A stretch of DNA of 51,060 bases, taken from assembly GCA_017617235.1 (NCBI GenBank), contig JAFZWQ010000048.1:1-51060 (forward strand), written 5' to 3'. Source of the stretch: Bacteroidaceae bacterium. GTDB taxonomy: Bacteria > Bacteroidota > Bacteroidia > Bacteroidales > Bacteroidaceae. The notes under the pieces were generated by a model. The model was not told where the DNA came from and searched no databases. It was given only the letters and a program-made list of their open reading frames with translations. A program made the translations under genes and the position numbers. This document shows positions 3,344 to 48,120 of this stretch, one piece after another (positions within the stretch are counted from its first letter, which is position 1; the number at the start of each line of letters is the position of its first letter).

Positions 3344-3378
3344 CTATCTATTATCCATTATCAATTCTCAATTATTTG
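3344..3378 (+). repeat. heptamer array before mutY
   Basis: Five consecutive 7-nt units: CTATCTA, TTATCCA, TTATCAA, TTCTCAA, TTATTTG. They fill the space directly upstream of the mutY -7 box. Confidence 0.6.
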
Positions 3379-3386
3379 TAACTTTG
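3379..3386 (+). promoter_or_regulatory. mutY -7 box (TAACTTTG)
   Basis: TAACTTTG lies only 5 nt before the mutY ATG, so transcription would begin at or within a few nt of the start codon. This suggests a leaderless or near-leaderless mRNA. Confidence 0.6.
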
Positions 3387-3391
3387 TCCCT

Positions 3392-4420
3392 ATGAACACC
3401 TCTGATTTCTCCCTTCGCCTGTTGGATTGGTACGCCCAGCATGGTCGCGAACTGCCTTGGCGACAGACGCGTGACCCCTATCGCATTTGGGTCAGCGAGA
3501 TTATCTTGCAACAAACCCGTGTGGCACAGGGCTACGACTATTTTTTGCGTTTTATTCGTCGTTTTCCCAATGTAGAATCGCTGGCTGCGGCTTCCGAGGA
3601 TCAGGTGCTGTCTCAGTGGCAGGGCCTTGGTTACTACAGCCGTGCCCGCAACCTGTATGCTGCGGCCCGTCAAGTGGTGGTGTTGGGTGGTTTCCCTACG
3701 GATTACGAGGGTATCCGCAGTCTGAAGGGGGTAGGGGACTATACGGCAGCCGCCATCGCCTCGCTAGCTTATGGCCTTCCCCATGCTGTGGTGGACGGTA
3801 ATGTTTATCGTGTACTATCGCGCTATTTTGGCATCGACACCCCCATTGACTCTACAGCAGGTCGCAAACTCTTTGCCGCCTTGGCGCAGGAGATGTTGGT
3901 TCCCTCGCGTTCTGCCGACTACAACCAGGCCATTATGGATTTCGGAGCTCTCCAATGCACACCCCGTGTTCCCCAGTGTGCAGCGTGTCCCTTGGCTGAC
4001 GGGTGTCAGGCTTTGGCCAACGGCAATGTCGATAAGTTGCCCTGCAAGGAACATTTCACGCGCGTGCGCGACCGCTTCTTTACCTATGTTTATGTGCGTT
4101 GTGGAGGAGAAACTCTGCTGCAGCGGCGTGGTGCAGGTGACATTTGGCAGGGGCTTTATCAGATGCCTCTGTTCGAAAGCACTCATCCCCTTTCGCCTCG
4201 CGAGGTCGAGGAAATGGTGGGGCACTTGGGACGGATGACTCGGCTCTGCAGCGACCATCGCCACCAGCTTACTCACCAGCGATTGCATGCCGACCTCTAT
4301 CTGTTGGAAACTGACAATCGGCCCAGTATCGATGGTTCGTGGATACAAGAAACGGAGCTCGGTAGTTATGCCGTGCCCCGTCTTGTTCAGGAACTCCTCG
4401 CATTGTTAGGTGATAGGTGA
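3392..4420 (+). CDS. mutY: A/G-specific adenine DNA glycosylase MutY
   Basis: Removes adenine mispaired with 8-oxoguanine in base-excision repair. The HhH-GPD domain shows the catalytic Glu36 in SEIILQQTRV, the WQGLGYYSRARNL block, the helix-hairpin-helix LKGVGDYTAAAIAS (about 111-124) and the catalytic Asp135 in VVDGNV. Cys189, Cys196, Cys199 and Cys205 (C-x6-C-x2-C-x5-C) bind the 4Fe-4S cluster. A C-terminal NUDIX-like domain for 8-oxoG recognition follows from about residue 225. Length 342 is normal. The start is supported by the first family-conserved stretch (LLDWYAQHGRELPW) at residue 10. The gene is divergent from the rng unit, and both ends abut heptamer arrays; its stop codon lies in the downstream array. 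Confidence 0.96.
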   Translation: MNTSDFSLRLLDWYAQHGRELPWRQTRDPYRIWVSEIILQQTRVAQGYDYFLRFIRRFPNVESLAAASEDQVLSQWQGLGYYSRARNLYAAARQVVVLGGFPTDYEGIRSLKGVGDYTAAAIASLAYGLPHAVVDGNVYRVLSRYFGIDTPIDSTAGRKLFAALAQEMLVPSRSADYNQAIMDFGALQCTPRVPQCAACPLADGCQALANGNVDKLPCKEHFTRVRDRFFTYVYVRCGGETLLQRRGAGDIWQGLYQMPLFESTHPLSPREVEEMVGHLGRMTRLCSDHRHQLTHQRLHADLYLLETDNRPSIDGSWIQETELGSYAVPRLVQELLALLGDR

Positions 4421-4434
4421 TAACCTATAAACTT
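4407..4434 (+). repeat. heptamer array across the mutY stop codon
   Basis: Units TAGGTGA, TAGGTGA, TAACCTA, TAAACTT run in register, and the TGA stop of mutY (4418-4420) is part of the second unit. Confidence 0.5.
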
Positions 4435-4460
4435 CCCTTTAACTCCCTTTTACTTTTACT

Positions 4461-5843
4461 TTAAAAAATGTACTTCGTGATGAAATCCATCACTTCGTCT
4501 TTTATTTCCACGGGACAGTACTGCGGGTTGTTCAGTGTCGGACTGTGCACACCTATGGGATTTATCACCTTCTTCACATTGGGGCCCACCACAGGCGGCT
4601 GGCCGGCAGTCCATGGGTCGTCGTGGGAATAGTACAGCAGCAGCGGACAGGTGGTGTTCAGGAAGAAATTGTCCACAATGTCTTTGTACAGCGTACCATC
4701 GTATTTGTCCACCGTCCAGCGGTCCGCTTCCACTGATGACTGCAGCAGCACATCGGCGGGGTCGAAACTGGTGCCTTCCAACAGGTCCGAGAAATACTCG
4801 TAGCCGTTGTTATTGAAGCCTAATTCCAGGGCGCATTCCACGAAGTAGGAACGAAACGCTTCATCCTGGTTCCCATCGATTGTCTCGCGTACCCTTACCG
4901 CCAGCGAATCCTCGTTTGTCGCCAGCACCTCCAGTTCGTCCCTTCGTCCTCCAAGGGTTGGCGTGTACTGGAACACCTGGAAGAAGGTGTCAAACAGGTT
5001 AAAGACAAATTCCGAGAACTCCAGTTTCTTTTTGTTCTCTGCTTCCATTTGTTCACGGATGGTCTTGTACATACCTTCCTCGCCATCCTGCAGAACGTTG
5101 CGAATGGCCGTTTTCATCAGATTGCGCTCTTCCTCTGTACCCACCTCGTTGAATAAATACTCTCCGAATCGTTTGTCGTCGAGGCTCGTGGCGAAAGGCG
5201 AGCAGAAGGCCACTGCCATCTCCATGTCCTGTGGATAGTAATAGACGTAGTCTACGGCAGTCTCTCCGCTCTTGCTGGTGCCGGCACTCAGCCACTTGCC
5301 CTTGAAAATGGGCTTCAGCGTCTCGTAAATGGCATGCAGGTCGGCCGATGCCTGGGCCACGGTCTGGTATTTCCACTGCCCGTTGTCCTTGTTGAACGAA
5401 TCCCCGTAGTTGCGATGCTCCACGCACACCACGTTGGCTTCCAGGTTAATGCCCAGGTCGCCTGCATCGCGTAGACTGCGCAGTTCGTATCCGCATGTCA
5501 CCATGATGGTGGGTCGGTCGAATCCCCTGAACAGAATCCATATCTTCTGCAGGAACGCGTCGCCTGCCTCGTCGTCGTGGTTCAGGTCCTGCAGGAACAG
5601 CATGCTGTATTGTTCCTTGTAATCAAATTGGCCCATTTCCTTGGCTTCCATCGTCACCGTGTCCGGATTCTCCCGAATCAGGGTAATGTGGTCGATTTTC
5701 TGCAGCGCTTCCTTCAGTGTGGAATATACCGGTTCGGGTTGTTCCGGAACAATGGGAATCTCGTCGTTCTTACAAGAGTTCAACGACACCAGACCCCATA
5801 TCATCAGGGCCGCTAACATCCATTGATACTTATTTCTTTTCAT
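4461..5843 (-). CDS. S37-type serine peptidase, lipoprotein
   Basis: Resembles peptidase family S37 (PS-10), relatives of prolyl tri/tetrapeptidyl aminopeptidases with an alpha/beta-hydrolase fold. I chose the internal ATG at 5843, because it places a clean lipoprotein signal (MKRNKYQWMLAALMIWGL, then LNSC with lipid-bearing Cys24) at the N-terminus; the open frame extends 11 codons upstream. The nucleophile elbow is GTSKSGETAV with Ser190, followed by the family block DYVYYYPQDMEMAVAF and CSPF. The acid residue fits YSHDDPWTAGQP and the His fits IGVHSP near the C-terminus. Probably anchored to the inner or outer membrane and active on peptides. Monocistronic; it lies beyond the terminator of the porin operon. 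Confidence 0.8.
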   Translation of the reverse strand: MKRNKYQWMLAALMIWGLVSLNSCKNDEIPIVPEQPEPVYSTLKEALQKIDHITLIRENPDTVTMEAKEMGQFDYKEQYSMLFLQDLNHDDEAGDAFLQKIWILFRGFDRPTIMVTCGYELRSLRDAGDLGINLEANVVCVEHRNYGDSFNKDNGQWKYQTVAQASADLHAIYETLKPIFKGKWLSAGTSKSGETAVDYVYYYPQDMEMAVAFCSPFATSLDDKRFGEYLFNEVGTEEERNLMKTAIRNVLQDGEEGMYKTIREQMEAENKKKLEFSEFVFNLFDTFFQVFQYTPTLGGRRDELEVLATNEDSLAVRVRETIDGNQDEAFRSYFVECALELGFNNNGYEYFSDLLEGTSFDPADVLLQSSVEADRWTVDKYDGTLYKDIVDNFFLNTTCPLLLYYSHDDPWTAGQPPVVGPNVKKVINPIGVHSPTLNNPQYCPVEIKDEVMDFITKYIF

Positions 5844-5921
5844 TGGTGGTTTTATGTTTTTCTTTGTTTGTGTCAATTCGCGTTTGTTACCTTTCTTACC
5901 TTAATTTGCCTGCTAAATTAC

Positions 5922-5952
5922 AAAAAAAACGCTATTCCCCAAAGGAATAGCG
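5922..5952 (-). terminator. rho-independent terminator of the porin operon
   Basis: On the minus strand CGCTATTCC, a 5-nt loop and GGAATAGCG (5952-5930, 9 bp) are followed by a run of eight T (5929-5922). The rest of the gap 5844-6100 holds no gene that I can see. Confidence 0.85.
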
Positions 5953-6100
5953 CCCTTTTCTTACTCTTCTGCACTACGCAAGCACTTCGTGATTACTTGA
6001 TCCTTTCATTTTATGTTTTTTACTGCTTAATGTCCGCGACTGTGGGATAAAGATGTAACGCTTTTCCAAAGCCGTAGTGGATGGCAACTTTTTGGTAGAG

Positions 6101-8311
6101 TTAATTGAAGAAGTTCCAGGAGACACCGAAGTGGAAGGTGCGCGGATCGATGGGATAGTGGGGCACCCAGAACATTCGGCCGCTGCCTGCGTTCAGATGG
6201 TTCATGGCCAGATAGAGGCGGCAGTGTTTGATATGGAGATTGACGTAGGCATTGACGATGGGATAATTACCAATCTTTACAAGGGGCTGGCTGGTGTCCT
6301 GAACAGCAAACTGCTGAATGGCAGGACTGTAATCGGGGGCGTAGTATTTGGTGAAGTAGCGTACATCGCCGCCCACTTCCACATTCAGCACCTTGGCGAT
6401 GCGGAAATGTAGATATAGATTACTGTAGAGGGTGAGCTTGGGCAGGGGCAGCACAGTTGCGTTGCTGGTGGTTTGGTACGTTACGTCGTTGTCCCAATGG
6501 AAGGGACCAAAGGCCAGGTCTTGGCAGAGGCGGACGGAGAACACCTGAATGTTGCCACCATGCTGGCGTGCGACTACATCGTGGCTGTAGTCGGTAGGCA
6601 GTATGCTGGTAGGGTCGCTACCGGTGTAGGTGTTCTGCATGGCGTAGTAGGTGTAGTTCTTTACGTTCTCGAGTCCCACTGTCAGGTTGGTGCCAATGCG
6701 GGGCAGCCGCAGGGAACCCTCGATACGTGTCTTGAATTCCTTTGAGAAGTTCGGATTGTCCCACCAGAGAAACTGGCTGTGGTATTTATAGAAATAGATG
6801 TTGGGAGCAAGGTCCTTGACAAAGGCGTGTGCCTCGATTTCCAAGGTGTCGCGTTTGCCCAACTTAAGGTCGAGGTCAGCAATACCGTCAACTTCGAATT
6901 CGCCAACATCGGCACCTGCTACGGAAATCTCGCCATTCACGTTGTAGTGAATGAGTTTGCCCTGTGTGCGGTTAATCTCACCTCCGACGTATAAATTATG
7001 TTCGGTATAGCGTGTGTTGCCTACGATACCTGCAGCATCGAGCGAGGGGAGGGTGTAGGTTTCCAGTTTATGGGTGGCGAAGAGGGCAATGCCCATCTGG
7101 GCCCATTTGTTGAAACCTTCGCGCATGGCCAGTGCAACGGTGTTCCGCACGATGAGGTCCTTTGTAACGTCTGTTACACTGGTCAGATCGCCATAGTACA
7201 GATTGGTATAGTACGACGATGGTGTGTTATACGAGTAATAAGTGTGGCGCAGGTTTTCGATGTTCAGAGTGTGTATGATGCTGGATACGGGCACGAATTC
7301 CGTGGGGATGATTTGTTCCGCAGTCCATTTCGTGCGTAATGAATCCAGCAGTAACGTGCGTCTGAGCGTGTCGGCCTTTGCCAATTCGCGCAGACTGTCG
7401 GACAGTTGCATCAGCAATTCCGTATCGTTTGGCATCTTGGGCTTCAGACTGTCGGCAATCTCTATCTCTCGATGGAATCCAAGATTGTAGCGGTGGGTCA
7501 AGAAGGCATTCTGGTTCTGGTTGCGATTCCACGTTTCTGTGAGCAGCGTGGGAATGTCCTTCGAGCCATAGCGGCGGGGGAAACTCTGAGGATTGCGGAT
7601 GTAGGCGTCATTCTCGATGCCTCCATTCTCTGCCATCTTGAAATGGTTGAGGTTAACGTAGGCATGTAGATTGTATCGGTCGCCCAGATAGTATCCGAAG
7701 AGTGTTCCGCCGAACTGGCTGTTGGCTTGCGAGTTATAGTACCCTCGACCATAGAGATAGTCGAACTTCATGCCTATACCCGATACCTTGTTGATGTTTG
7801 AGGCAAAATAAGCACGCACACGTTCCTGCCCGTTCTGCTTGTTGCCTACACTATGGTAAGCCAGGTTGGTAAGCGGGCTGAGTGTGTTGGAGAAACGGAA
7901 GTCCTGAATGCCACCGATGAAGAAACTGAAGGGGTTCAGGAACTGAATCAGGCTGACATCAGAGCGATGCATATATATTCGGCTCAATCGGGGTGAACCC
8001 AGATTGCCCAAGATGCTGTATTCGCCGTTGTAGCCTGTTGTCTCGTTGAAGTATTGGAACATGTGGACGGCTGTGTCCAGATTCTCGGCCTCGATGATGT
8101 TTCCCAGTCGTTCGTCGACAGTCCATTGGTGCACACCGATGGGAACATCCTCGAGTTTATTCTCCGTGGTGTCGCGTCCCCAGCTGGTTCGTTTGTCCTT
8201 GTTCTTGTTATACGATGAGTATCCGTCGTTGTCCGTTTGCGAATAGTCCTGAGCCCTGACCTCGATGAGGCAGAGCACAAGCATGAGCAACAGGACTAAT
8301 CGTCGGTTCAT
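6101..8311 (-). CDS. putative porin (PF14121-like outer-membrane beta-barrel)
   Basis: A 736-residue protein with an N-terminal signal peptide ending VRAQ and a barrel that ends in HFGVSWNFFN. The terminal aromatic residues and alternating hydrophobic strands are typical of outer-membrane barrels. The N-terminal block (GVHQWTVDERLGNI, FQYFNETTGYNGEYS, LGNLGSPRLSRIYMHR) matches what is known of the Bacteroidetes putative porin family. Substrate unknown. The start lies 10 nt downstream of the stop of the oxidoreductase gamma subunit, so it is probably the last gene of that operon; the terminator at 5922-5952 follows. Why a barrel protein is linked to ketoacid oxidation is not clear. Confidence 0.82.
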   Translation of the reverse strand: MNRRLVLLLMLVLCLIEVRAQDYSQTDNDGYSSYNKNKDKRTSWGRDTTENKLEDVPIGVHQWTVDERLGNIIEAENLDTAVHMFQYFNETTGYNGEYSILGNLGSPRLSRIYMHRSDVSLIQFLNPFSFFIGGIQDFRFSNTLSPLTNLAYHSVGNKQNGQERVRAYFASNINKVSGIGMKFDYLYGRGYYNSQANSQFGGTLFGYYLGDRYNLHAYVNLNHFKMAENGGIENDAYIRNPQSFPRRYGSKDIPTLLTETWNRNQNQNAFLTHRYNLGFHREIEIADSLKPKMPNDTELLMQLSDSLRELAKADTLRRTLLLDSLRTKWTAEQIIPTEFVPVSSIIHTLNIENLRHTYYSYNTPSSYYTNLYYGDLTSVTDVTKDLIVRNTVALAMREGFNKWAQMGIALFATHKLETYTLPSLDAAGIVGNTRYTEHNLYVGGEINRTQGKLIHYNVNGEISVAGADVGEFEVDGIADLDLKLGKRDTLEIEAHAFVKDLAPNIYFYKYHSQFLWWDNPNFSKEFKTRIEGSLRLPRIGTNLTVGLENVKNYTYYAMQNTYTGSDPTSILPTDYSHDVVARQHGGNIQVFSVRLCQDLAFGPFHWDNDVTYQTTSNATVLPLPKLTLYSNLYLHFRIAKVLNVEVGGDVRYFTKYYAPDYSPAIQQFAVQDTSQPLVKIGNYPIVNAYVNLHIKHCRLYLAMNHLNAGSGRMFWVPHYPIDPRTFHFGVSWNFFN

Positions 8312-8321
8312 TCTAATTCGT

Positions 8322-8867: not shown

Positions 8868-8921
8868 TTATCAATTTTCTAATCGACTTTGTCGCTTGAT
8901 TCATTCAAGAATTATCAAATT

Positions 8922-12141: not shown

Positions 12142-12176
12142 TCTTAACTTTGAACTTTCAACTCTGAACTTCCAAT
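12142..12176 (-). repeat. heptamer array between the permease and DUF4468 genes
   Basis: On the plus strand the units are TCTTAAC, TTTGAAC, TTTCAAC, TCTGAAC, TTCCAAT. The 18-nt core AACTTTGAACTTTCAACT is the reverse complement of a stretch inside the beta-galactosidase gene (23572-23589). Confidence 0.7.
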
Positions 12177-14169: not shown

Positions 14170-15333
14170 TTACTTCTTGCTTTTATCGTTGTTTCTGTTC
14201 TTGGGACGAGGCATGAATGGGTTGCTGTTGGCCAGCTCGGGTTCTTCGTCCATCATCCCGTTCTGCACATCGGTCAGCACTTCCGTACCAGCCGAAATTC
14301 CACTGACGATTTGTGTCAGCGTGCCGTTGGTCATACCTGTTTCTACTGCGATAGCTTTCAGGCTTGGACCTTCCTTTACCCACAACTTCTGCTTGGCTTC
14401 CACGTCGGTAATGGTTTCACCCTCGTTCAGCATGGCCTCGCTGGGTTTGAAACGCAGCGCTTTGGCAGTAACAGCCAGTACGTCTCTAACTTCCATTGTG
14501 AAAATGGTGACGTTTGCCGTCAGGCCGGGCTTCAGCTTCAAATCTTGGTTAGGTGCGCTGATGACTACCTGATACGTTACCACGTTACTTTCTGTGGTTG
14601 CTTGCTGGCGCACCTGGGTAACACTTCCCTCGAACGTGTCGTTGGGATAGGCGTCAACGGTGAATGCTACGCGCTGTCCTTCCTTGACTTCGCCTATGTC
14701 GGCTTCGTCAACATCTGCAATTACTCGCATGTCTGTCAGGTCCTTGGCAATCTTGAACAGGGTGGGGGTGTTGAAGCTCGAAGCCACCGTCTGTCCTTCT
14801 TCCACTTCCTTCGACAGTACCACACCGTCGATGGGCGAGGTGATGGTGGCATATCCCAGGTCTGTCTGTGCACGCTTCACACTTTCCTGTTGCTGGGCAA
14901 CGGTCTGCTGGGCTCGTACATAGGACAGTCGTGCCTGCTCGAAATCGTTTGCCGAAATTAGTCCCTGGTCGTACAGCGCCTTGTAGCGTTCGTAGTTGGT
15001 CTTTTGGTAATCCAAATCGCTTTGTGCGCTCTTCAGGTTTGCCTGTGCGCTGGCCAGTGTCGAGAGCAGGTTCGTGCGGTCCAGCTCTGCAATAACCTGT
15101 CCGGCTTTCACAACGCTGTTGTAATCAACGTAGAGTTTACTTACGATACCGCTGACCTGTGTACCTACATCGACGCTGGTAACAGGTTCAATAGTACCTG
15201 TAGCCGTTACACTGGTGGTGATGTCCTGTTTTTCCACCATTGCGGTAGAGTAGGTGTATTCCACCTTTTTCTTACAGCCCACACAGAGGATGCCGAGAAG
15301 GCAGAGAACACAAAGATTCTTCATTAGTTTCAT
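14170..15333 (-). CDS. efflux periplasmic adaptor subunit (MacA/HlyD type), lipoprotein
   Basis: Bridges the inner-membrane MacB-type pump and the TolC channel. The N-terminus MKLMKNLCVLCLLGILCVGC carries a lipobox (LCVGC), so it is probably lipid-anchored. A lipoyl/barrel-sandwich domain (VTATGTIEPVTSVDVGTQVSG), an alpha-hairpin coiled coil (about residues 90-150) and beta-barrel domains with TITSPIDGVVLSKEVEEGQTV follow. A charged C-terminal tail (PRPKNRNNDKSKK) closes the protein. 387 residues is normal. It lies between the tolC-like gene (19 nt) and the ATPase (18 nt). Confidence 0.9.
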   Translation of the reverse strand: MKLMKNLCVLCLLGILCVGCKKKVEYTYSTAMVEKQDITTSVTATGTIEPVTSVDVGTQVSGIVSKLYVDYNSVVKAGQVIAELDRTNLLSTLASAQANLKSAQSDLDYQKTNYERYKALYDQGLISANDFEQARLSYVRAQQTVAQQQESVKRAQTDLGYATITSPIDGVVLSKEVEEGQTVASSFNTPTLFKIAKDLTDMRVIADVDEADIGEVKEGQRVAFTVDAYPNDTFEGSVTQVRQQATTESNVVTYQVVISAPNQDLKLKPGLTANVTIFTMEVRDVLAVTAKALRFKPSEAMLNEGETITDVEAKQKLWVKEGPSLKAIAVETGMTNGTLTQIVSGISAGTEVLTDVQNGMMDEEPELANSNPFMPRPKNRNNDKSKK

Positions 15334-15356
15334 ATCTTTAAATTTTCAAATTTTAC
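15333..15356 (-). repeat. octamer array at the TolC/adaptor junction
   Basis: Units TATCTTTA, AATTTTCA, AATTTTAC repeat with an 8-nt period. They cover the end of the TolC-family gene (stop 15353-15355) and the gap before the adaptor start. Confidence 0.4.
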
Positions 15357-18283: not shown

Positions 18284-18325
18284 GTAACTCGTAATTCGAA
18301 AAACGTTAAATCATAAAATCATAAT
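18284..18325 (+). repeat. heptamer-like array in the aspS leader
   Basis: GTAACTC, GTAATTC, GAAAAAC, GTTAAAT run in 7-nt register, then CATAAAAT and CATAAT just before the ATG. Confidence 0.5.
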
Positions 18326-21820: not shown

Positions 21821-24685
<2,865 letters not shown>

Positions 24686-24710
24686 GGTATATCCTAAAGC
24701 CTTCTCCCCC

Positions 24711-24790
24711 TCCCGCGGAAAACTGTAAACTGTTTACATTGTTTACATTTGCAAATACAGAAAGACCCAGAGGCTGTCTCTGGGTCTTTT
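24711..24790 (+). repeat. C-rich / GTAAAC / terminator cassette, copy 1
   Basis: Starting 26 nt after the beta-galactosidase stop: CCCCCTCCCGCGG, then AACTGTAAACTGTTTACA and related heptamers, then a terminator hairpin. The same order is found on the minus strand at 34809-34890 after queE, and a version without the terminator lies at 29129-29190. Confidence 0.75.
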
Positions 24791-28560: not shown

Positions 28561-28584
28561 AAAAAGTTCAAAGGTTAAAAGGCA
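28561..28584 (-). repeat. octamer array after the MNT gene
   Basis: AAAAAGTT, CAAAGGTT, AAAAGGCA: three 8-nt units adjoining the stop of the nucleotidyltransferase gene. Confidence 0.4.
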
Positions 28585-29032: not shown

Positions 29033-29128
29033 CGAAATATAATTAGAAATGAAAAGGGAAACAGAGAAAATTATTCTGAGATTGCTTGATATACGACCTT
29101 TCGAACAGACAAAATGCCAGAAAAGTAT

Positions 29129-29190
29129 CCTCCCCCTCCCGCGGAGAAAACTGTAAACTGTTTACATTGTTTACAGTTGTGGGGAGGGGC
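29129..29190 (+). repeat. C-rich / GTAAAC cassette, copy 2 (no terminator)
   Basis: CCCCCTCCCGCGG, AAACTGTAAACTGTTTACA, TTGTTTACAG, then GTGGGGAGGGG. The outer CCCCTCCC and GGGAGGGG are complementary, so the heptamer core is the loop of a hairpin. Confidence 0.65.
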
Positions 29191-29207: not shown

Positions 29208-29390
29208 GGAGCGATACCACGCAGACCTGCGGAGGGACGCGTGCCTTGGCTTGACACACAATTGTGTGACAAGCCAAGCGATACTATCCCTACCCACGGA
29301 GCGATACTATCCCTACCCGCCTAGCGTTGTAACGCTCGGGCGGTAGCGTTGGGACGCTCGGACGGTAGCGTTGGGACGCATGCTTCGTCA
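29208..29390. repeat. repeat-rich non-coding stretch with 22-23 bp units
   Basis: AGCGATACTATCCCTACCC occurs at 29277-29295 and 29300-29318 (23-nt step). TAGCGTTG starts at 29322, 29344 and 29366 (22-nt step), each unit forming AGCGTT-x2-RACGC(T) hairpins. No gene is visible between 29046 and 29612. Confidence 0.65.
29246..29277. repeat. 32-bp near-perfect palindrome
   Basis: TTGGCTTGACACACAA followed directly by TTGTGTGACAAGCCAA, with one mismatched pair. It could form a cruciform or bind a dimeric protein. Confidence 0.75.
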
Positions 29391-29420: not shown

Positions 29421-29537
29421 AAATTAAGAAGTTAATAAATTAAGAAGTTAATATTTTTAGTGCACATTCTAAAAATATAGTATATTATAATTAAATGTAA
29501 TGAAATTCTTAATATCTTAACTTCTTAACTTCTTAAC
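29421..29537. repeat. inverted pair of octamer arrays
   Basis: Left arm: AAATTAAG, AAGTTAAT, AAATTAAG, AAGTTAAT (29421-29452). Right arm: TTCTTAAT, ATCTTAAC, TTCTTAAC, TTCTTAAC (29506-29537). The arms are largely complementary and could fold on each other. The right arm abuts the promoter of the next gene. Confidence 0.7.
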
Positions 29538-29541
29538 TTTG

Positions 29542-34808: not shown

Positions 34809-34890
34809 AAAGACCCAGGGACATCGCCTCTGGGTCTTTTTTTATGTGCAAAATGTAAACAGTTTACAGTTTTTCCGGGGGAGGGGGTTA
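34809..34890 (-). repeat. C-rich / GTAAAC / terminator cassette, copy 3, after queE
   Basis: Minus strand: CCCCCTCCCCCGG, AAAACTGTAAACTGTTTACA, then the AAAGACCCAGAGGC...TGGGTCTTT hairpin (34809-34839). Same order and orientation relative to the upstream gene as at 24711-24790. On the plus strand the hairpin is followed by seven T, so it can stop transcription from both sides. The stretch 34626-34808 shows no convincing gene. Confidence 0.75.
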
Positions 34891-35796: not shown

Positions 35797-35866
35797 ATTG
35801 AAAATTGAAGATTGAAAATTGAAGATTGAAAGTTTTGTTCCCCCTAAAGGGGGATAGGGGGGCTTA
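35797..35866 (-). repeat. heptamer array plus C-rich hairpin cassette (M18/queD junction)
   Basis: Five heptamers ATTGAAA, ATTGAAG, ATTGAAA, ATTGAAG, ATTGAAA (35797-35831), then GTTTTGTTCCCCCTAAAGGG and GGATAGGGGGG up to the M18 stop. Same layout at 37145-37233. Confidence 0.75.
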
Positions 35867-37141
35867 GTTGAGGAACTGGGTGAAGGCACGGATGCACAGG
35901 GCGTGGTCGCGCACGGAACCCGTCTCGCGGCACGAATGCATGGCCCAGATGGGGTTGCCCATGTCCACTCCGCGCAGGGGTAGGCTCGAAGCCAGAATGT
36001 TGCCCAGCGTGCTACCTCCCGCCACATCGCTGTGGTTCACGAAATATTGGCAGGGAACGCCTGCTTCGCGACACACCTCGGCAAACACGGCAGCCGATTG
36101 TGCATCGGTGGCATATTTCTGTGCGGCATTTATCTTGATGACAGGCCCTCCGCCCATCTGCGGATGGTTCGTGGGGTCGTATTTATCGCTGTAGTTGGGG
36201 TGCCAGGCGTGGGCATTGTCGGCACTGACCATGAAGGCTTGCTCGATGGCACGGAACCAGTCGTCCTGTGTGCCTCCCTGTGCCAGCACCATGCGCTGCA
36301 GCATGCTCGATAGGAAGGGACTGCCTGCGCCCTGTTTCGTCTGACTGCCCGTCTCCTCGTTGTCGAAGATGGCCAGCACCTGCGTAACTTCGGGCTGTTT
36401 GTTGGCTGCCAGCAGGGCCTCCAAGCCTGCGTGCACCATCGACAGATCGTCCAGTCGTCCGCTGCTGATGAACTCGCCATCCAGTCCTACACGACAGGCG
36501 GGAGTGGCGTCGTAGAGGTACAGATCGAAGTCTAGAATCTCGCTTTCTTGAACTTTTAATTCGCTGGCTATCAGGTTTATGAGCATGCCTCCCTCTAGCT
36601 GTTCTTTAACTATACCCAAGATGGGCAGCATGTCCTTCTGCTTGCTCAGTTTCACCCCGTCGTTCACCTGACGATTGAAGTGAATGGCCAGATTGGGGAT
36701 GACGAGCAGGGGCCTGCGGACGTGCAGCAGTCGGGTAGTGGGGTGCAGGGCGTCGGTGCCCCTGAGGATGACGCGCCCAGCCAGCGACAGCGGACGGTCC
36801 ATCCATGTCGAAAGGATGGGGCCTCCATAGACCTCTGTGTTCAGTTTCACCAGTCCTCCCTCGCAACGGATTTCGCCTTGAGGCTTGATGCGGAACGTGG
36901 GGCTGTCGGCATGTGCACAGATGATGTGGAAACCAGCCTCCGCCAGCGGTTTGCTGCCCACGCGGAAGGCGTAGAGCGACGAATCGTTTTTCGTGACAAA
37001 CAGCTGCTGACCAGCCTCGAGACGGGGCATCGGCTTCGCAGCATCCAGTCGCTGGAAACCAGCTTCCTGCAGCGCCTTGGCCAGCGTATCGACTGCCAGG
37101 AAGTTCACTGGTGACTTATCTAAAAACTCAATTAATTCCAC
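35864..37141 (-). CDS. apeB: M18 family aminopeptidase (aspartyl aminopeptidase type)
   Basis: Cytosolic zinc aminopeptidase, removing N-terminal acidic residues from peptides. Metal and catalytic blocks: CAHADSPTFRIKP (His, Asp), VEGGP-like LNTEVYGGPILSTWMDRPLSLAG, FDNEETGSQTKQGAGSPF (Asp-Glu-Glu), MVSADNAHAWHPNYSDKYDPTN and NHSDVAGGSTLGNI. 425 residues is usual. The start appears to be GTG at 37141, as no in-frame ATG lies between it and the upstream stop, and the next residues (ELIEFLDKSPVNFLAV) match the family opening. Flanked on both sides by heptamer/C-rich cassettes. Confidence 0.93.
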   Translation of the reverse strand: MELIEFLDKSPVNFLAVDTLAKALQEAGFQRLDAAKPMPRLEAGQQLFVTKNDSSLYAFRVGSKPLAEAGFHIICAHADSPTFRIKPQGEIRCEGGLVKLNTEVYGGPILSTWMDRPLSLAGRVILRGTDALHPTTRLLHVRRPLLVIPNLAIHFNRQVNDGVKLSKQKDMLPILGIVKEQLEGGMLINLIASELKVQESEILDFDLYLYDATPACRVGLDGEFISSGRLDDLSMVHAGLEALLAANKQPEVTQVLAIFDNEETGSQTKQGAGSPFLSSMLQRMVLAQGGTQDDWFRAIEQAFMVSADNAHAWHPNYSDKYDPTNHPQMGGGPVIKINAAQKYATDAQSAAVFAEVCREAGVPCQYFVNHSDVAGGSTLGNILASSLPLRGVDMGNPIWAMHSCRETGSVRDHALCIRAFTQFLN

Positions 37142-37144: not shown

Positions 37145-37233
37145 GTCTAATGGCTAATGTAAAATGGCTAATGGCTAAAGGCTAATGGCTAATGGCTAAA
37201 GTTATGTTCCCCCTTAAGGGGGGTAGGGGGTCA
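37145..37233 (-). repeat. heptamer array plus C-rich hairpin cassette (TIR-like/M18 junction)
   Basis: Eight heptamers: GTCTAAT, GGCTAAT, GTAAAAT, GGCTAAT, GGCTAAA, GGCTAAT, GGCTAAT, GGCTAAA (37145-37200), then GTTATGTTCCCCCTTAAGGG and GGGTAGGGGG to the stop of the gene at 37231. Confidence 0.8.
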
Positions 37234-41935: not shown

Positions 41936-41963
41936 ATGTAACATGTGAAATGTAAAATGTAAT
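41936..41963 (+). repeat. heptamer array between DUF1573 and DUF2264 genes
   Basis: ATGTAAC, ATGTGAA, ATGTAAA, ATGTAAT: four units directly before the next ATG region. Confidence 0.75.
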
Positions 41964-41971
41964 TCAATACC

Positions 41972-43291
41972 ATGAAGAAGATTTTATTATTGATTTCCCT
42001 GGTATGTGTGCCCCTCGTAGGCTTCGCAGGAAAAAAGAAGCCGGTGGTGGAGAAAGACCCGCTGGGAACAGGTGTCGAGGATCGTGCCTACTGGGCAAAG
42101 TTGGCTTACACAATGGCGGCTCCCGTGCTGGAGAACATGGCCAACGGCACCCTGCAGAAGAATATGAAACTGGAATTGTCCCCCACCTGGGACAATCGCG
42201 ACAAGAAGGTGGCCTATATGGAATGCTTCGGCCGACTGATGGCTGGCATTGCTCCCTGGCTCACTTTGCCCGACGACGATAGCGAGGAAGGCAAGATGCG
42301 CAAACAACTGCGCGAATGGGCGCTGAAGGCCTATGCCAATGCCGTTGACCCCAACAGTCCCGACTATCTGGGATGGACGAGTGGCGGACAGACGCTGGTG
42401 GATGGTGCCTACGTGGTGGAGAGCCTGTTCCGTGGATACAAGGCCCTGTGGGAACCTCTGGATGATGTTACGAAACAACGCTACATCAAGGAGATACAGG
42501 GATTGCGTCGTTACGACCCTCCTTATACCAACTGGCTGCTGTTCGTAGGCATGGAGGAGGCTTTCCTGATGTATGTGAATGGCGGATACGATGCCTTCCG
42601 CATCAAGATGGCTCTTTCAAAAGCCGAGGAATGGTACATTGGTGATGGCCTGTACAGCGACGGTCCCTCGTTCGCCTTCGACTATTACAACGCTTTCGTT
42701 ATCCAGCCCATGTACACCGAAATCCTGCAGATGGTGGCTGCCAAGCAGGGTAACAATACGTACCTTGTGCGCTCGAAGGGCGATAACCGTAATGGTGCCA
42801 ACAATCGTCTGAAGGAGGTGGTGAAGCGCATGCAGAAGTACAGCGTAATCCTCGAGCGTTTCATCTCGCCAGAGGGTACATTCCCCGTTGTGGGTCGCTC
42901 GATTCCTTATCGTCTGGCTGTTCTGCAGCCGTTGGCTCAGCTGGCTTGGATGAAACAGTTGCCTGGCGAACTGCACAACGGACAGGTTCGTGCAGGAATC
43001 ACAGCCGTCATGAAGCGCATGTTCGAAGGTAAGGGAAAGACGAACTTTACGGAGGATGGTTACCTGACCATCGGCTTCGTAGGCAGTCATCCCAATGTGG
43101 CCGACTGGTACACCAACAACGGCTCGCTCTACATGACCTCGCTGGCCTTCATGCCTCTGGGCCTGCCTGCCAACGACCCCTTCTGGACAGATGCTCCTGA
43201 GAAATGGACCTCGAAGAAGGCTTGGGAAGGCGACGACTTCCCCAAGGACCACAAGTGGGACATCAACAAACAAATCCTCTACTGGGAATAA
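41972..43291 (+). CDS. DUF2264 protein, exported, probable glycan-related enzyme
   Basis: Signal peptide MKKILLLISLVCVPLVGFAG. DUF2264 proteins have an alpha/alpha-barrel fold and occur in polysaccharide-utilisation settings; the exact reaction is not established. Recognisable blocks are DRAYWAKLAYTMAAPVLENMA, YMECFGRLMAGIAPWL, GGQTLVDGAYVVESLFR, YTNWLLFVGMEEAFLMY and GLYSDGPSFAFDYYNAFVIQPMYTEIL. 439 residues fits the family. It follows DUF1573 by 43 nt and ends at a strong bidirectional terminator. Confidence 0.85.
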   Translation: MKKILLLISLVCVPLVGFAGKKKPVVEKDPLGTGVEDRAYWAKLAYTMAAPVLENMANGTLQKNMKLELSPTWDNRDKKVAYMECFGRLMAGIAPWLTLPDDDSEEGKMRKQLREWALKAYANAVDPNSPDYLGWTSGGQTLVDGAYVVESLFRGYKALWEPLDDVTKQRYIKEIQGLRRYDPPYTNWLLFVGMEEAFLMYVNGGYDAFRIKMALSKAEEWYIGDGLYSDGPSFAFDYYNAFVIQPMYTEILQMVAAKQGNNTYLVRSKGDNRNGANNRLKEVVKRMQKYSVILERFISPEGTFPVVGRSIPYRLAVLQPLAQLAWMKQLPGELHNGQVRAGITAVMKRMFEGKGKTNFTEDGYLTIGFVGSHPNVADWYTNNGSLYMTSLAFMPLGLPANDPFWTDAPEKWTSKKAWEGDDFPKDHKWDINKQILYWE

Positions 43292-43294
43292 AAA

Positions 43295-43324
43295 GAAAAC
43301 GGGAGACGAAAGCCTCCCGTTTTC
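43295..43324. terminator. bidirectional terminator (DUF2264 / pth)
   Basis: GAAAACGGGAG (43295-43305), 8-nt loop, CTCCCGTTTTC (43314-43324), then TTTT on the plus strand; on the minus strand the stem is followed by TTTT as well. Confidence 0.88.
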
Positions 43325-43355
43325 TTTTGCTTAATGGATAACCGTTAACCCTTAA

Positions 43356-44566: not shown

Positions 44567-44656
44567 TGTTCGTTTTTTTTAGTTGTGTTACTCTAAATTA
44601 AGTTTTCTCGTGCTTAATTCGCCATCACACAGGGAGATGTGCTCCAAAAGCGGGTG

Positions 44657-44688
44657 CAAAGGTACGAATAAGTGAGTAAAAAAGCAAA
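44657..44688 (-). promoter_or_regulatory. rplY promoter in repeat copy 4 (TTTG-N20-TACCTTTG)
   Basis: TTTG (44685-44688), 20 nt, TACCTTTG (44657-44664) on the minus strand. The block 44657-44709 is close to the first 53 nt of the copy at 3255. Confidence 0.8.
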
Positions 44689-44726
44689 TTTATTTGCAAT
44701 TTTTTGACTCCTAACTCGTCGCTATA

Positions 44727-45068
44727 TTAAAAGTCCAAGTCGATTTTGATTTCTGCATCCTCGATTTCGGGACGAGGCTCGGATTTTCCCTGCTCCTGTT
44801 CGATGAAATCGATAGCTTCAGCCATGCAGGACTTGAACTTCTCGAAATCCTCTCTATAAAGGAATATCTTGTGCTTCTCGAAATTAACTTTCGGGTTGAT
44901 GGGATCGTTGCTTTCCACCACTTTCTTGCTCTCGGTAATTGCCAAGTACAATTCATCCTTGCGGTTACGCTTTACATCGACGTAATAAATGCGTTTTCCG
45001 GCCTTAATCGTACGGGAAAAAACGATGTCCCGTTCCTTACTCTCATCTGTTTTCTTAAAGTCTTCCAT
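44727..45068 (-). CDS. DUF3276 protein (PUR-alpha-like nucleic-acid-binding)
   Basis: Bacteroidetes family with a PUR-alpha-like fold, related to the single-strand nucleic-acid-binding protein BpuR of Borrelia. Visible blocks: IVFSRTIKAGKRIYYVDVKRNRKDE, LYLAITESKKV, KHKIFLYREDFEKF. 113 residues with an acidic tail. It is monocistronic, divergent from nusB, with a promoter at 45103-45134. Role probably RNA- or DNA-binding; target unknown. Confidence 0.85.
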   Translation of the reverse strand: MEDFKKTDESKERDIVFSRTIKAGKRIYYVDVKRNRKDELYLAITESKKVVESNDPINPKVNFEKHKIFLYREDFEKFKSCMAEAIDFIEQEQGKSEPRPEIEDAEIKIDLDF

Positions 45069-45102
45069 AACTGTTAGTGATAAATATTACGCTAATCGGC
45101 TT

Positions 45103-45134
45103 CAAAATTGCATCTATTTTTCATAACTACCAAA
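45103..45134 (-). promoter_or_regulatory. DUF3276 gene promoter (TTTG-N20-CAATTTTG)
   Basis: TTTG (45131-45134), 20 nt, CAATTTTG (45103-45110) on the minus strand; one mismatch to TAnnTTTG. Confidence 0.6.
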
Positions 45135-45174
45135 AAAAATGGGCATAAATTGCAATTCTTTAGCATAAAATGCC

Positions 45175-45182
45175 TAATTTTG
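45175..45182 (+). promoter_or_regulatory. nusB -7 box (TAATTTTG)
   Basis: TAATTTTG 37 nt before the nusB ATG; a TTG at 45150-45152 is 22 nt upstream, slightly long spacing. Confidence 0.6.
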
Positions 45183-45219
45183 TGCCACAAAACGATAAGC
45201 ATCAAGCATTCTTTGAAAT

Positions 45220-46143
45220 ATGATTAACCGCGAACTGATTCGAATTAAGGTAGTTCAACTCGTTTACGCCTACTATAATAATGAAGGAAAAACGTTGGAA
45301 ACTGCAGAAAAAGAATTCCTATTCAGCCTGGACAAGGCCTATGAGTTGTACCACACTTTGCTTTTGCTCATGGTCAGCATTACGCACATCGCACGTCGCA
45401 CAGTCGAGATGCAGCAGAGCAGGGCAAGACGCCTACACGTGAAGGAGGATATTCCCACCAAGTTCGTAGACAACCAATTCATTGAACAACTGAGTAAAAA
45501 CGAACAGCTGCGTGCGTTCCAGGAGAAAGAGAACACCATCTGGAGCGACGATGAGGAGTTTTTGCGTCAATTGTATAAAAAAATTACCGAACAGGAGTTT
45601 TATCAGGAATACATTCGCAAGGCCGGAAACAGTTACGAGGACGACCGCGAGGTGTGGCGCAAGATATACCGTAACCTGCTGTGTAACAATGATGAATTGG
45701 ATGAGCTGCTGGAGGAACGTAGCCTGTATTGGAACGACGACAAGACGATTGTGGACACGTTCGTCCTGAAGACCATACGCCAATTTGGAGAGGGTGAGGA
45801 AAGTCAGCAGTTGCTGCCGGAATTCAAAGACGAAGAGGACCTGCGTTTTGCAAAGGTTCTTTTCCGTACAGCCATCAACAACGAAGAAACTTTCCGCACA
45901 CTGATTAAGGGACAGACACGCAACTGGGATATGGAGCGCATAGCCCTCATGGACTTGCTCATCATGCAGGTGGCACTGGCCGAAATCACCTCGTTCCCCG
46001 AGATTCCTCTGAGCGTGTCGATTAACGAATATGTGGAAATCGCTAAGATGTACAGCACACCACGAAGCGGAAGCTATATCAACGGTATGCTCGACACCAT
46101 TGCAAAGCGACTCATCGCTGAGAACAAAATTGAGAAAATGTAA
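45220..46143 (+). CDS. nusB: transcription antitermination factor NusB, long form
   Basis: Binds boxA RNA with NusE (S10) in rRNA antitermination. The C-terminal half carries the NusB fold: NWDMERIALMDLLIMQVALAEI, FPEIPLSVSINEYVEIAKMYSTPRSGSYINGMLDTIAKRL. The first about 160 residues are an extra helical domain that replaces part of the usual N-terminus and is typical of Bacteroidetes. 307 residues. First gene of nusB-yajC-ybbR-coaE-DUF5606. Confidence 0.93.
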   Translation: MINRELIRIKVVQLVYAYYNNEGKTLETAEKEFLFSLDKAYELYHTLLLLMVSITHIARRTVEMQQSRARRLHVKEDIPTKFVDNQFIEQLSKNEQLRAFQEKENTIWSDDEEFLRQLYKKITEQEFYQEYIRKAGNSYEDDREVWRKIYRNLLCNNDELDELLEERSLYWNDDKTIVDTFVLKTIRQFGEGEESQQLLPEFKDEEDLRFAKVLFRTAINNEETFRTLIKGQTRNWDMERIALMDLLIMQVALAEITSFPEIPLSVSINEYVEIAKMYSTPRSGSYINGMLDTIAKRLIAENKIEKM

Positions 46144-46161
46144 TAAATTCAATAAAATAAT

Positions 46162-46491
46162 ATGATTATGAACACAATGTTTATTCTACTTCAGGCTACT
46201 GCTAATGGTCAACAAGGTGGCATGTCTTTCATCATCATGATGGTTATCATCTTTGCCATCATGTGGTTCTTTATGATTCGTCCCCAGCAGAAGAAGCAGA
46301 AGGAGATACAGAACTTCCGCAATTCCATTACGGTGGGAAGTTCTATTGTAACCGCCGGTGGTCTGTATGGTACGGTTAAGTCCATCGATGATACTGACAA
46401 CACCCTGATGGTGGAAATTGCCCACGATGTTAGGGTGAAGGTTGACCGCAACTCGGTTTATGCTACTGCCCCTGTAAACGACAAGGCTTAA
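46162..46491 (+). CDS. yajC: preprotein translocase subunit YajC
   Basis: Small SecDF-associated membrane protein. One transmembrane helix (about residues 21-39, MSFIIMMVIIFAIMWFFMI) followed by RPQQKKQKEIQNFRNSI and SIVTAGGLYGTVKSIDDTDNTLMVEIA, the YajC signature. 109 residues. The ATG at 46168 is an equally possible start. It lies 18 nt after nusB. Confidence 0.94.
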   Translation: MIMNTMFILLQATANGQQGGMSFIIMMVIIFAIMWFFMIRPQQKKQKEIQNFRNSITVGSSIVTAGGLYGTVKSIDDTDNTLMVEIAHDVRVKVDRNSVYATAPVNDKA

Positions 46492-46503
46492 TTCTCCTTT
46501 GAC

Positions 46504-47517
46504 ATGAAGGCAGACCAGTATCGGATGAAGAGCATGTGGAAGAGAATCAAGGGATTCCTGCTTGGAGCCATGAGTCAGGAATTCTTCATTTTCCTCTTCT
46601 TCTTGTTTCTGTCATCTGGATTCTGGCTGTTGCAGGCACTCGACGAAACCTTCGAGGCGGAGGTCGAGATACCATTGGAACTGGTGGATGTGCCTGACGA
46701 TGTGGTAATTACGTCGCCGCTGCCCGAACAAATCAACGTTATTGTCAAGGACAAGGGCACCTCACTCTTCCGCTATTGGCGGCACAAGGTGAAGCCCATA
46801 CAGATATCCTTCGAGGACTACAGCAATGGTGCAAGTAGCGGTATGGTGCGTATCCTGCAATCTGATGTGCAGAAGGCAGCTCAGTCGCATCTCTTTTCCA
46901 CTTCGCGCATACAAGGCATAAAGCCCGACACCCTGGAATTCTTCTTCAATCACGGGCGGCATTCCACCGTTCCCGTTGCTGTTGTGGGCAAAGTCGAGAC
47001 AAATCCGCGTTTCTATCTCCTCGACCTGCATACCCAACCTTCTGACGTGCGTGTATTCGCTACATCACAGGTATTGGACACGCTGACGGCTGTTTGCACA
47101 ATGCCTGTCAACCTGAAGGATTTGCAGGAGAACACCAGCGTGGAGGTCGACCTGAAACCCATTCGAGGTGCAAAGATAGAACCCTCGAAGGTTACGCTCA
47201 TGGCAACGGTCGATGTCTATATGGAGGATACCGTAGTGGTGCCTGTGGTTTCCTTGAATTTCCCTGCAGACAAACAGTTGCGTACCTTCCCTTCGACGGT
47301 GAAGATTACTTACACGGTGGGTTATGCTCGCAGCAAGGATGTGTCGCACAAGAATTTCGTTTCCGTCATCACTTACGAAGATGTCCTCGCTCTGAGGGAA
47401 AAGGGTGCCTCAAAGATTCCCGTCCGTCTGAAGACGATTCCCGAAGGGGTGACCAACGTGAGAATCGAACCTAGCGAACTCGACTATTTGGTGGAAACGG
47501 TTAGTGACGAAGAATAG
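46504..47517 (+). CDS. YbbR-domain protein (CdaR-like)
   Basis: Single N-terminal membrane helix (about 25-43, EFFIFLFFLFLSSGFWLLQAL) followed by extracytoplasmic YbbR repeats: FEAEVEIPLELVDVPDDVVITSPLPEQINVIVKDKG, then FYLLDLHTQPSDVRVFAT and KLVD-like strands. In Firmicutes such proteins regulate the diadenylate cyclase CdaA; no cyclase is adjacent here, so the role is open. It lies 12 nt after yajC and 3 nt before coaE. Confidence 0.85.
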   Translation: MKADQYRMKSMWKRIKGFLLGAMSQEFFIFLFFLFLSSGFWLLQALDETFEAEVEIPLELVDVPDDVVITSPLPEQINVIVKDKGTSLFRYWRHKVKPIQISFEDYSNGASSGMVRILQSDVQKAAQSHLFSTSRIQGIKPDTLEFFFNHGRHSTVPVAVVGKVETNPRFYLLDLHTQPSDVRVFATSQVLDTLTAVCTMPVNLKDLQENTSVEVDLKPIRGAKIEPSKVTLMATVDVYMEDTVVVPVVSLNFPADKQLRTFPSTVKITYTVGYARSKDVSHKNFVSVITYEDVLALREKGASKIPVRLKTIPEGVTNVRIEPSELDYLVETVSDEE

Positions 47518-47520
47518 ACG

Positions 47521-48102
47521 ATGGTTCGATTGGGCATTACGGGTGGTATTGGAAGCGGCAAGTCGTATGTCTGCCGCATGCTGGAGCAGGAGTTTGATGT
47601 TCCCGTATACAATTGCGATATCAATGCACGCATCATCACCTATACAGATTACGAGGTGATGCAACAGCTAACAGGCTTGCTTCCAGGACTCTATGACAAA
47701 GACGGCGAGTTGGACAAATCGATGCTGGCCCATTATCTCTTTGCTTCGGAAGAGAATGCAGCAAAGGTGAATGCCATCGTTCATCCGGCTGTGAAACGTG
47801 ATTTCCGAAAGTGGGTCGAGTTGCGCAGCGACAGGAAACTGCTGGTGGTGGAAAGTGCCATTCTGTACGAGAGCCATTTCGATACGGAAGTCGATAGCGT
47901 CCTTTTCGTGGATGCCCCATTGGAGGTGCGCATCCAACGGGTTCAGGAACGCGACGGCCTTTCCGAAGAGGAAATACGCAGACGCATCGCCTTGCAGCAA
48001 ACAGAACAGGCACGTGGACTTGCCGATTTCTGTCTCGTAAACGACGGTCAAACCGACATCCGTTCCCAACTCAACGAAATACTTAAATCACTAAATCATT
48101 AA
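47521..48102 (+). CDS. coaE: dephospho-CoA kinase
   Basis: Last step of CoA synthesis. P-loop GITGGIGSGKSYVCRML at the N-terminus, DADxxxH-like CDINARIITYT, LLVVESAILYESHF and VDAPLEVRIQRVQERDGLSEEEIRRRI. 193 residues is normal. The stop and last codons (LKSLNH) lie in an octamer array that fills the gap to the next gene. Confidence 0.95.
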   Translation: MVRLGITGGIGSGKSYVCRMLEQEFDVPVYNCDINARIITYTDYEVMQQLTGLLPGLYDKDGELDKSMLAHYLFASEENAAKVNAIVHPAVKRDFRKWVELRSDRKLLVVESAILYESHFDTEVDSVLFVDAPLEVRIQRVQERDGLSEEEIRRRIALQQTEQARGLADFCLVNDGQTDIRSQLNEILKSLNH

Positions 48103-48120
48103 ATTCTAAAATAATACATT
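48081..48120 (+). repeat. octamer array across the coaE stop codon
   Basis: ACTTAAAT, CACTAAAT, CATTAAAT, TCTAAAAT, AATACATT: five 8-nt units running to the next ATG. The coaE TAA (48100-48102) is inside. Confidence 0.65.

Follow-up and report, generated by a model that had tools for sequence, protein, structure and literature searches.

Tandem arrays in the window and the strength of their period

The stretch of DNA examined here (hereafter the window) comprises 51,060 nucleotides of contig JAFZWQ010000048.1 from a Bacteroidaceae bacterium of the gut and is listed as contig C22 in the assembly of this genome (2.54 Mb in 50 contigs; 85.5% complete). Short tandem arrays with units of 7 or 8 nt, twelve of which had been listed by an initial annotation, occur at many places in the window. 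With somewhat more confidence than doubt, we regard these arrays as lineage-private heptameric tandem repeats of the short tandemly repeated repetitive (STRR) or long simple sequence repeat (LSSR) kind, which would grow by slippage, be copied to new sites and be filtered by selection.

Two arrays flank the minus-strand gene of an M18 aminopeptidase (open reading frame 35864..37141; PF02127, E 2.4e-122 over 35864-37108), whose GTG start at 37141 agrees with relatives and which served as the anchor of orthology. A plus-strand, period-7 ATTGAAR array at 35797..35831 (Tandem Repeats Finder (TRF) score 62-70) lies between the stop of this gene and the start of a PTPS gene, both genes being on the minus strand. 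On the other side, 3 nt upstream of the M18 start, about eight units of a period-7 array (TRF, 8.1 copies) occupy 37145..37200 and read TTAGCCN on the minus strand (i.e. GGCTAAN on the plus strand). A GC-rich hairpin, CCCCCTAAAGGGGG, adjoins the ATTGAAR array at 35840..35853 and resembles a second GC-rich hairpin adjoining the other array at 37209..37223; both were read from the sequence.

Further arrays are distributed across the window. A period-7 array of TATCAAT type spans 3344..3378 (TRF 3345-3375), runs directly into TAACTTTG and lies 13 nt 5' of the start at 3392; the gene beginning there (3392-4420) has a period-7 TAGGTGA array overlapping its stop end at 4407..4434 (TRF 4407-4422). 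TRF also detected a period-7/14 array (AACTTTG/AACTCTG) flanked by two minus-strand genes at 12142..12176, a weak period-8 array, TTTCAAAT, at 15333..15356 (TRF 15328-15354, score 33) and a weak array at 18284..18325 in which a clear period-8 dimer (2.1 copies) is confined to 18308-18324. A weak period-7/8 stretch lies at 28561..28584. An inverted pair, with a self BLAST match between 29421 and 29539, is made up of a period-8/16 array, AAATTAAGAAGTTAAT, as left arm (29421..29453; TRF) and a period-8 array, TTCTTAAC, as right arm (29506..29539; TRF), the latter continuing into TAACTTTG. A period-7 ATGTAAA array (41936..41963; TRF) stands just 5' of the start at 41972, and a period-8 array, TAAATCAC, at 48081..48120 (TRF 48084-48104) crosses the stop at 48102 and reaches the start at 48121. 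The initial annotation had treated such arrays as a feature of gene junctions, a restriction that failed: a period-7 array which it had not listed is in frame on the plus strand at 23572..23604 (TRF score 52-64) within the 21821-24685 gene (glycoside hydrolase family 2; PF02836, E 1.2e-83), and others, such as a period-7 CGCACRT array at 45383-45406 in the 45220-46143 gene, also lie within genes.

Each of the twelve listed sites was compared with 2000 dinucleotide shuffles of the local sequence. Seven sites, including 3344, 29506, 41936 and 48081, gave 0/2000, four gave P values of 0.0015-0.0045 (4407 and 15333, P=0.0015; 12142, P=0.0025; 28561, P=0.0045) and 18284 gave 0.022. These P values are post hoc because the sites had been picked by the initial annotation. 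With a score of >=30 and a period of 7 or 8, TRF recovered 11 of the 12 sites, the missing one being 28561-28584. All twelve arrays are real in that every site stood above its local shuffles, with 18284 and 28561 being weak.

The period was then assessed in a 789-kb sample of the window's genome, consisting of 100.8 kb of intergenic and 687.7 kb of called coding DNA. Genes were called by a simple hexamer-based script, not a published caller, and start positions are approximate; around half of the sample used for dimer counts was picked around repeat hits. Autocorrelation was controlled with 20 stretches of the same genome that were selected blind to arrays. Lag 7 was the strongest intergenic lag both in the window (z 7.0; lag 8, z 4.7) and in the blind-selected stretches (z 14.8; lag 8, z 11.3), whereas multiples of 3 dominated in coding DNA, with lag 7 only slightly raised (unshuffled values of 0.250 versus ~0.24 at lags 5, 8 and 10). 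Counts of perfect intergenic dimers in 101 kb exhibited an excess over shuffles that begins abruptly at period 7: observed and shuffled counts were 130 and 103.6 for period 5 (1.3-fold), 46 and 33.6 for period 6 (1.4-fold), 145 and 8.2 for period 7 (17.7-fold), 54 and 2.6 for period 8 (20.8-fold), 11 and 1.2 for period 9 (9.2-fold) and 2 and 0.4 for period 10. By ratio the period-8 excess is as strong as that of period 7, which leads in absolute number only. At a TRF score of 36, 100 period-7 and 50 period-8 rows were obtained for intergenic DNA, as compared to 0.4 and 0 for shuffled sequence, and 45 and 3 rows, respectively, for called coding DNA (rows may overlap). In total, 133 intergenic arrays were present in 100.8 kb versus 2.2 after shuffling, and 98 of the 378 gaps of >=40 nt contained an array.

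A shared period so far above shuffled intergenic sequence implies a common generating process, as the initial annotation had proposed. Its description of the period as strict needs amending: 7 or 8 is shared, but there is no single strict value, and one relative (G014; L248-L257) additionally had 24 period-9 intergenic dimers versus 0 shuffled, the highest count among the sampled genomes. The signal might be suspected of arising spuriously from base composition, from leakage of coding sequence or from assembly, as the units are mostly AT-rich, the genomes are fragmented and the named relatives are mostly metagenome-assembled. However, dinucleotide shuffles abolish the signal, ruling out composition, four lower-GC genomes of other families show little of it, and one unit occurs at one junction in two independent assemblies (i.e. 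L090 and L094). We consider an artefact of any of these kinds to be extremely improbable.

Unit sharing within genomes and turnover between species

The initial annotation had described units that differ at each site and had argued against descent from one repeat. Many sites do differ, but the units are not unrelated. A BLAST search with one 401-nt junction of the window matched the genome at 46 other places, and every match took in the array. ATTGAAN occurred at 57-58 sites of the 789-kb sample (57 versus 10 for the reversed unit, a control that is not clean, as real AAGTTAN-type arrays may be among the 10), and the ATTGAAG trimer with <=2 mismatches gave 151 overlapping matches in the window's whole genome and none for its reversed control. 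TTAGCCN, the unit at 37145, was present at 11 sites of the sample, every one of them intergenic. GAGTTCN had 4 sites, which all fall in called coding DNA and include Mfd and NAD kinase; reversed controls were 0 for both units. The commonest units of this genome (i.e. ATTGAAA, ATTGAAG, AATTAAA and GTGAAAA) are single steps apart, as judged by eye.

Sharing was quantified for 337 period-7 arrays, with no more than one array kept per kb and after removal of low-complexity units and of three duplicate loci; here and in the other comparisons one genome was used per species. Identical units were found in 497 of 7290 within-genome pairs as compared to 734 of 49326 between-genome pairs, being 4.6-fold as frequent within genomes, and the bias was also seen without the window's genome (124 of 1830 versus 347 of 24966) and for period-8 units (27 of 622 versus 4 of 3119). 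Period-7 units within one mismatch numbered 1710 versus 889 +- 74 in label permutations. Part of the between-genome sharing is expected to be due to descent. Identical units are widespread in the genome and commoner within than between genomes, and the case against descent from one repeat was not upheld.

Genome-typical units at unlinked sites argue for copying between sites. The alternative of purely local slippage, in which each array grew independently from its site's own sequence and the polymerase determines an optimum of 7 nt, would suit both the sharp onset of the excess at period 7 and the whole-unit length change described below. It accords with the suggestion of Mrazek et al. 2007, related in PMC4679880 and PMC4692102, that polymerase contacts are involved. 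It is harder to reconcile with identical units at dozens of unlinked sites or with GAGTTCN at four coding sites, one of them in NAD kinase, for which none of 29 orthologs carries it, and we judge it unlikely.

Mismatches within arrays found by period alone were concentrated in one column of the unit. The top column held 167 of 328 mismatches in period-7 arrays of the window's genome (128 +- 5 expected) and 121 of 258 in relatives (102 +- 4); for period 8 it held 31 of 59 in relatives (22 +- 2) and 27 of 67 in the window's genome (24 +- 2; P 0.093, not significant). A separate per-column tally is biased, its arrays having been selected by core. Variation at one column recalls known families written GGGNATC. 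A rule of six fixed bases plus one free was rejected, as only 11 of 31 longer arrays of this genome vary at one or two columns.

Across genomes the trait varied widely. Matches to the ATTGAAG trimer (<=2 mismatches) numbered 139 in G026, 73 in G004 and 53 in G014, all 53 of the last reading ATTGAAC, and were absent from 13 of 37 same-genus genomes; 3 of 24 other-family genomes had matches (G048, 17; G052, 5; G053, 3), and the reversed pattern gave 0-3 per genome. Observed and shuffled period-7 dimers were 52/3.0 in G014, 42/2.8 in G026, 20/1.0 in G016, 23/2.8 in G015, 9/0.5 in G024 and 6/2.8 in G011, with stretches of G014, G026 and a few others having been selected partly by array matches, and were 6/2.2, 6/3.2, 1/2.2 and 1/0.8 in four other-family genomes. 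The trait is therefore strong but patchy in the genus, whereas the four other families sampled show it weakly or not at all. Private units were also met in relatives (e.g. AACTATG in L090 and L094; AAATCACY in L081). No perfect intergenic period-7 or period-8 dimers were found at the M18 locus of S. copri (L129 and L135) or Prevotella sp. MA2016 (L150). Among viral contigs, exact tetramers of ATTGAAG and ATTGAAC were present in 3 and 15 stretches, respectively. Three putative viral contigs (L337, L341 and L345), which are possibly proviruses or host DNA, were rich in several heptamer units.

The loci compared at orthologous junctions belong to a set of 80 named loci with an M18 peptidase, taken mostly from uncultured, mostly metagenome-assembled Bacteroidales of the rumen or other gut sites and labelled Bacteroidaceae, Prevotellaceae or Bacteroidales, with a few Prevotella or Segatella copri. 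The gap between the M18 and PTPS genes is 78 nt with an ATTGAAR array in the window, and only 2 nt in L080 and 19 nt in L081, both without an array. ATTCTTA/ATTCTTC-type arrays occupy this gap in L085 and L082, and a short ATTGAAR array on the opposite strand in L078; L083 is a degenerate case, and the AT-rich gap of L079 has no clear array. At the opposite end of the M18 gene, the window has TTAGCCN and L078 GTTGAGA, and six others lack an array. AATTAAA-type arrays upstream of a GH92 gene are present in L078 and L081 and absent from the window and L080. In a second group, ten species were compared at the 5' junction of the M18 gene. Four carried arrays, which belong to three unit types (ATTGAAR in L091; AACTATG in L090 and L094; ACCATTT/AATGGTC in L113), five had gaps of 20-25 nt with no array, and L099 had a poorly aligned gap with no clear array. 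Across species, arrays thus appear, vanish or change unit at orthologous junctions. L090 and L094 differ at this junction by exactly 14 and 63 nt (i.e. 2 and 9 units), and such whole-unit length changes point to slippage. Among these related genomes the unit differs from one species to the next under a period that remains 7-8, and single orthologous sites reveal where arrays were gained, lost or altered in unit.

Siting relative to genes and arrays within proteins

Arrays had initially been described as hugging stop and start codons; closeness to stops held for one class of arrays, and closeness to starts did not hold. Array density per kb was similar across gap types (tandem, 1.36; divergent, 1.27; convergent, 1.44), and only 2 of 64 array midpoints in tandem gaps of 40-400 nt fell in the fifth nearest the called start (starts being approximate). 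This even density, together with the scarcity near starts, favours tolerance of the arrays over a role in controlling start sites or promoters, and siting by start codons or promoters was discarded as unsupported by the gap densities. Closeness to stops was seen for sense ATTGAAN arrays between tandem genes, 11 of 16 of which begin <=12 nt from the stop codon, with 8 of these 11 spanning it, versus 2 of 17 antisense arrays.

At one divergent promoter, two relatives have arrays just before a -7-like TAnnTTTG box, which we take to be the Bacteroidetes promoter motif, and many arrays of the window lie near gene ends. Both observations would suit a regulator of translation or transcription that binds the repeats at start and stop codons, as has been proposed for TAACTGA of Beggiatoaceae, similar repeats for which MacGregor proposed translational regulation. 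Such a role is nevertheless quite improbable in view of the similar densities in all three gap types, the two midpoints near starts, the presence of arrays within proteins and the loss or change of units at orthologous junctions.

A run detector found 41 arrays in the 687.7 kb of called coding DNA versus 4.7 after shuffling. The coding arrays fall in loops, linkers, C-termini and ~15 likely signal peptides, the last assigned by hydropathy. In-frame loop arrays were present in NAD kinase, Mfd and the window gene with the 23572-23604 array, families being assigned by Pfam. Some in-frame arrays precede C-terminal YDLSGRKV-like tails, presumably of the secretion-tail type, and others lie at gene ends. 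A 12-residue hydropathy maximum of >=1.6 was obtained for 15 of 19 N-terminal in-frame arrays (e.g. MKRLAFFLIIIFNFQFSTFNLFAQ), versus 181 of 604 called genes; the start codons of these 19 were chosen by us. The AATTTTC strand reads NFQFSIF in every frame and forms the hydrophobic core of likely signal peptides.

The NSEL-type repeat of NAD kinase was absent from all 29 orthologs, 26 of which have a short loop and three (L189, L190 and L192) loops of intermediate length. The Mfd repeat was likewise found in 0 of 29 relatives. An alignment with 23 relatives placed the 23572-23604 array in a loop that varies in length. The loops of the three closest relatives are longer and free of repeats, so that the array is no clean insertion. 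Loops of the NAD-dependent DNA ligase in relatives (L106, L107, L098, L128 and others) contain inserts that differ by species, some of them heptamer-like and some perhaps derived from GC-rich hairpin repeats. The arrays that have made their way into NAD kinase and Mfd, and into the DNA ligase of relatives, together with the likely signal-peptide cores, suggest a route from non-coding repeat to protein.

Flanking pieces, known repeat systems and explanation

The arrays might belong, as variable arms, to a small non-autonomous element, similar to a miniature inverted-repeat transposable element (MITE) or a repetitive extragenic palindromic (REP) sequence and mobilized by a transposase in trans. 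Companion pieces held in common would fit, with AAGCGACTACGTCGATTAGAA and CCCCCTTTAGGGGG adjoining some arrays, a GGCTACGCC core accompanying inverted arrays in L090 and L094, and GGGCGTAGCC occurring in L091 and L113; BrickBuilt of Porphyromonas gingivalis is, moreover, a MITE enclosing a tandem repeat (PMC4596501). Of the 58 ATTGAAN arrays, however, 37 have no common flanking piece beyond ATTGAAN-like repeats, nearby array pairs have no clear preference for inverted or direct orientation (5:2 in the window's genome; 12:12 in relatives), and no constant ends or inverted termini were seen around the arrays. In addition, a search for the Y1 transposase domain PF01797 found nothing in the window's assembly, which is 85.5% complete, and a single match in array-rich G026. 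An element of this kind is, in our view, also unlikely.

At one junction, inverted heptamer arrays surround a GGCTACGCC-like core in L090 (1387-1591), L094 (9837-9963) and L113 (5' of M18), the heptamers differing by species. An inverted-array element as the general form, which these three loci had prompted, was rejected on the orientation of pairs. A small palindromic piece like AAGCGACTWYGTCGATTAGAA abuts ATTGAAN arrays in L009, L015, L017, L023, L024 and L026. A link to the CCCCCTTTAGGGGG hairpin was dropped, the strict pattern being present in only 4 gaps, 3 with arrays (P=0.055), which is too few.

The initial annotation had known of no named family that fits. Dispersed heptameric arrays have been described as STRR, TAACTGA, GGGNATC and heptameric LSSR, from Cyanobacteria, Beggiatoaceae, Xanthomonas and others (PMC4679880, PMC4692102, PMC2670836). 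As cited in PMC4679880, a 2007 survey found heptamers to be the top long-unit class in most genomes; why they are so common among long simple repeats of bacteria is a question that dates back to 2007 or earlier (as cited in PMC4679880, PMC4692102). The window's genome shares with STRR/LSSR an excess of period 7, many dispersed, mostly intergenic sites and genome-typical recurring units. Cyanobacterial STRR (Calothrix, Nostoc and Anabaena) similarly have tandem units, usually of 7 nt, between genes and of unknown function (PMC2670836, PMC4692102). By the tested features the arrays are of the same kind as known heptameric repeats; new, in a different phylum from STRR, are the other units, the several unit families per genome, the 8-nt relatives and a notable share of in-frame coding copies, including likely signal peptides. 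No description of such arrays in this clade was recognised by title or abstract among the matches listed in the open-licence literature.

The other systems resemble the arrays in part. TAACTGA repeats (Beggiatoaceae, some Cyanobacteria and five Bacteroidetes) are dispersed heptamer direct repeats that are patchy across taxa, with mostly 7-nt-step indels between two close Cyanothece strains, but have one fixed unit mostly just upstream of start codons (PMC4679880), a preference not found in the window's genome, and no perfect TAACTGA dimers were present in the 789-kb sample. GGGNATC/GGGGAYT repeats of Xanthomonas and Nostoc are heptamers with a degenerate position, mostly non-coding and in orthologous gaps of varying length, but are G-rich, quadruplex-forming and under-represented between divergent genes (PMC4692102), whereas units here are mostly AT-rich with a similar density in divergent gaps; GGGAATC, GGGGACT and GGGGATT dimers numbered 0 in the sample. 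Borg tandem repeats of archaeal extrachromosomal elements are fast-evolving arrays both between and inside open reading frames, but are of independent origin and encode perfect amino-acid repeats (PMC9879509), whereas short degenerate units of 7-8 nt are common to many sites here. BrickBuilt is, like the arrays, an intergenic tandem repeat of Bacteroidales; its 23-nt unit, leader and tail and inverted ends (PMC4596501) set it apart, and in period it is closer to the window arrays at 29273-29379.

Under the STRR/LSSR-like reading that we favour, copy number would probably change by whole units through replication slippage, and segments of the genome's current units would be copied to new places by an ectopic process, i.e. 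template switching or a mobile carrier. Each genome would gain its own few units at many sites, with units drifting between species. Selection would remove most insertions, leaving near-neutral survivors in intergenic gaps, and in-frame, stop-free arrays would persist in protein loops, linkers, termini and signal peptides. The arrays look like spreading tandem DNA that survives where little harm is done.

Several observations weigh against this reading. A clear multi-unit length change was seen in one pair only (L090/L094), L106/L107 and L088/L096 having single 7-nt indels within arrays; most indels in the pair comparison were unrelated to arrays, and L096/L106 and L095/L097 had no indel of 7-299 nt. 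The concentration of mismatches in one column would be expected from slippage and random mutation alone only if a few mutations were spread by duplication of blocks. No copying machinery was identified in searches for PF00078 and PF01797. A flanking piece that is not ATTGAAN-like is shared with another array by 21 of the 58 ATTGAAN arrays, some pieces being other heptamer arrays, and some of these arrays may ride on a small element. Mfd loop length varies, L160 and L173 having loops as long or longer without an array; because relatives' loops vary and some are longer, Mfd and the window glycoside hydrolase were dropped as proof of insertion.

The reverse transcriptase domain PF00078 had no match in array-carrying G000, G004, G015, G016 and G026 and one match in G014, these assemblies being incomplete. 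Neither this enzyme nor a Y1 transposase was retained as the engine, there being no match to either in the window's assembly (85.5% complete). A bolder version of lineage-private copying is a long shot: a trans-acting activity in each lineage might write a core private to that lineage, with about six bases fixed and one or two free, tandemly into tolerated sites and rewrite arrays upon a change of core, and the arrays, being stop-free in three frames of one strand, might serve as ready-made signal peptides, linkers and C-termini. Such copying would be telomere-like, though PF00078 was not found in the window's assembly.

Two other repeats were noted in the window. The arrays at 29273-29379 are GC-rich and tandem with a period of 22/23, and 16 of the 39 other stretches sampled contain copies related to the sequence around them. 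A second dispersed element has window copies at 29122-29179, 24696-24751 and 34852-34887 and is also present in L047.

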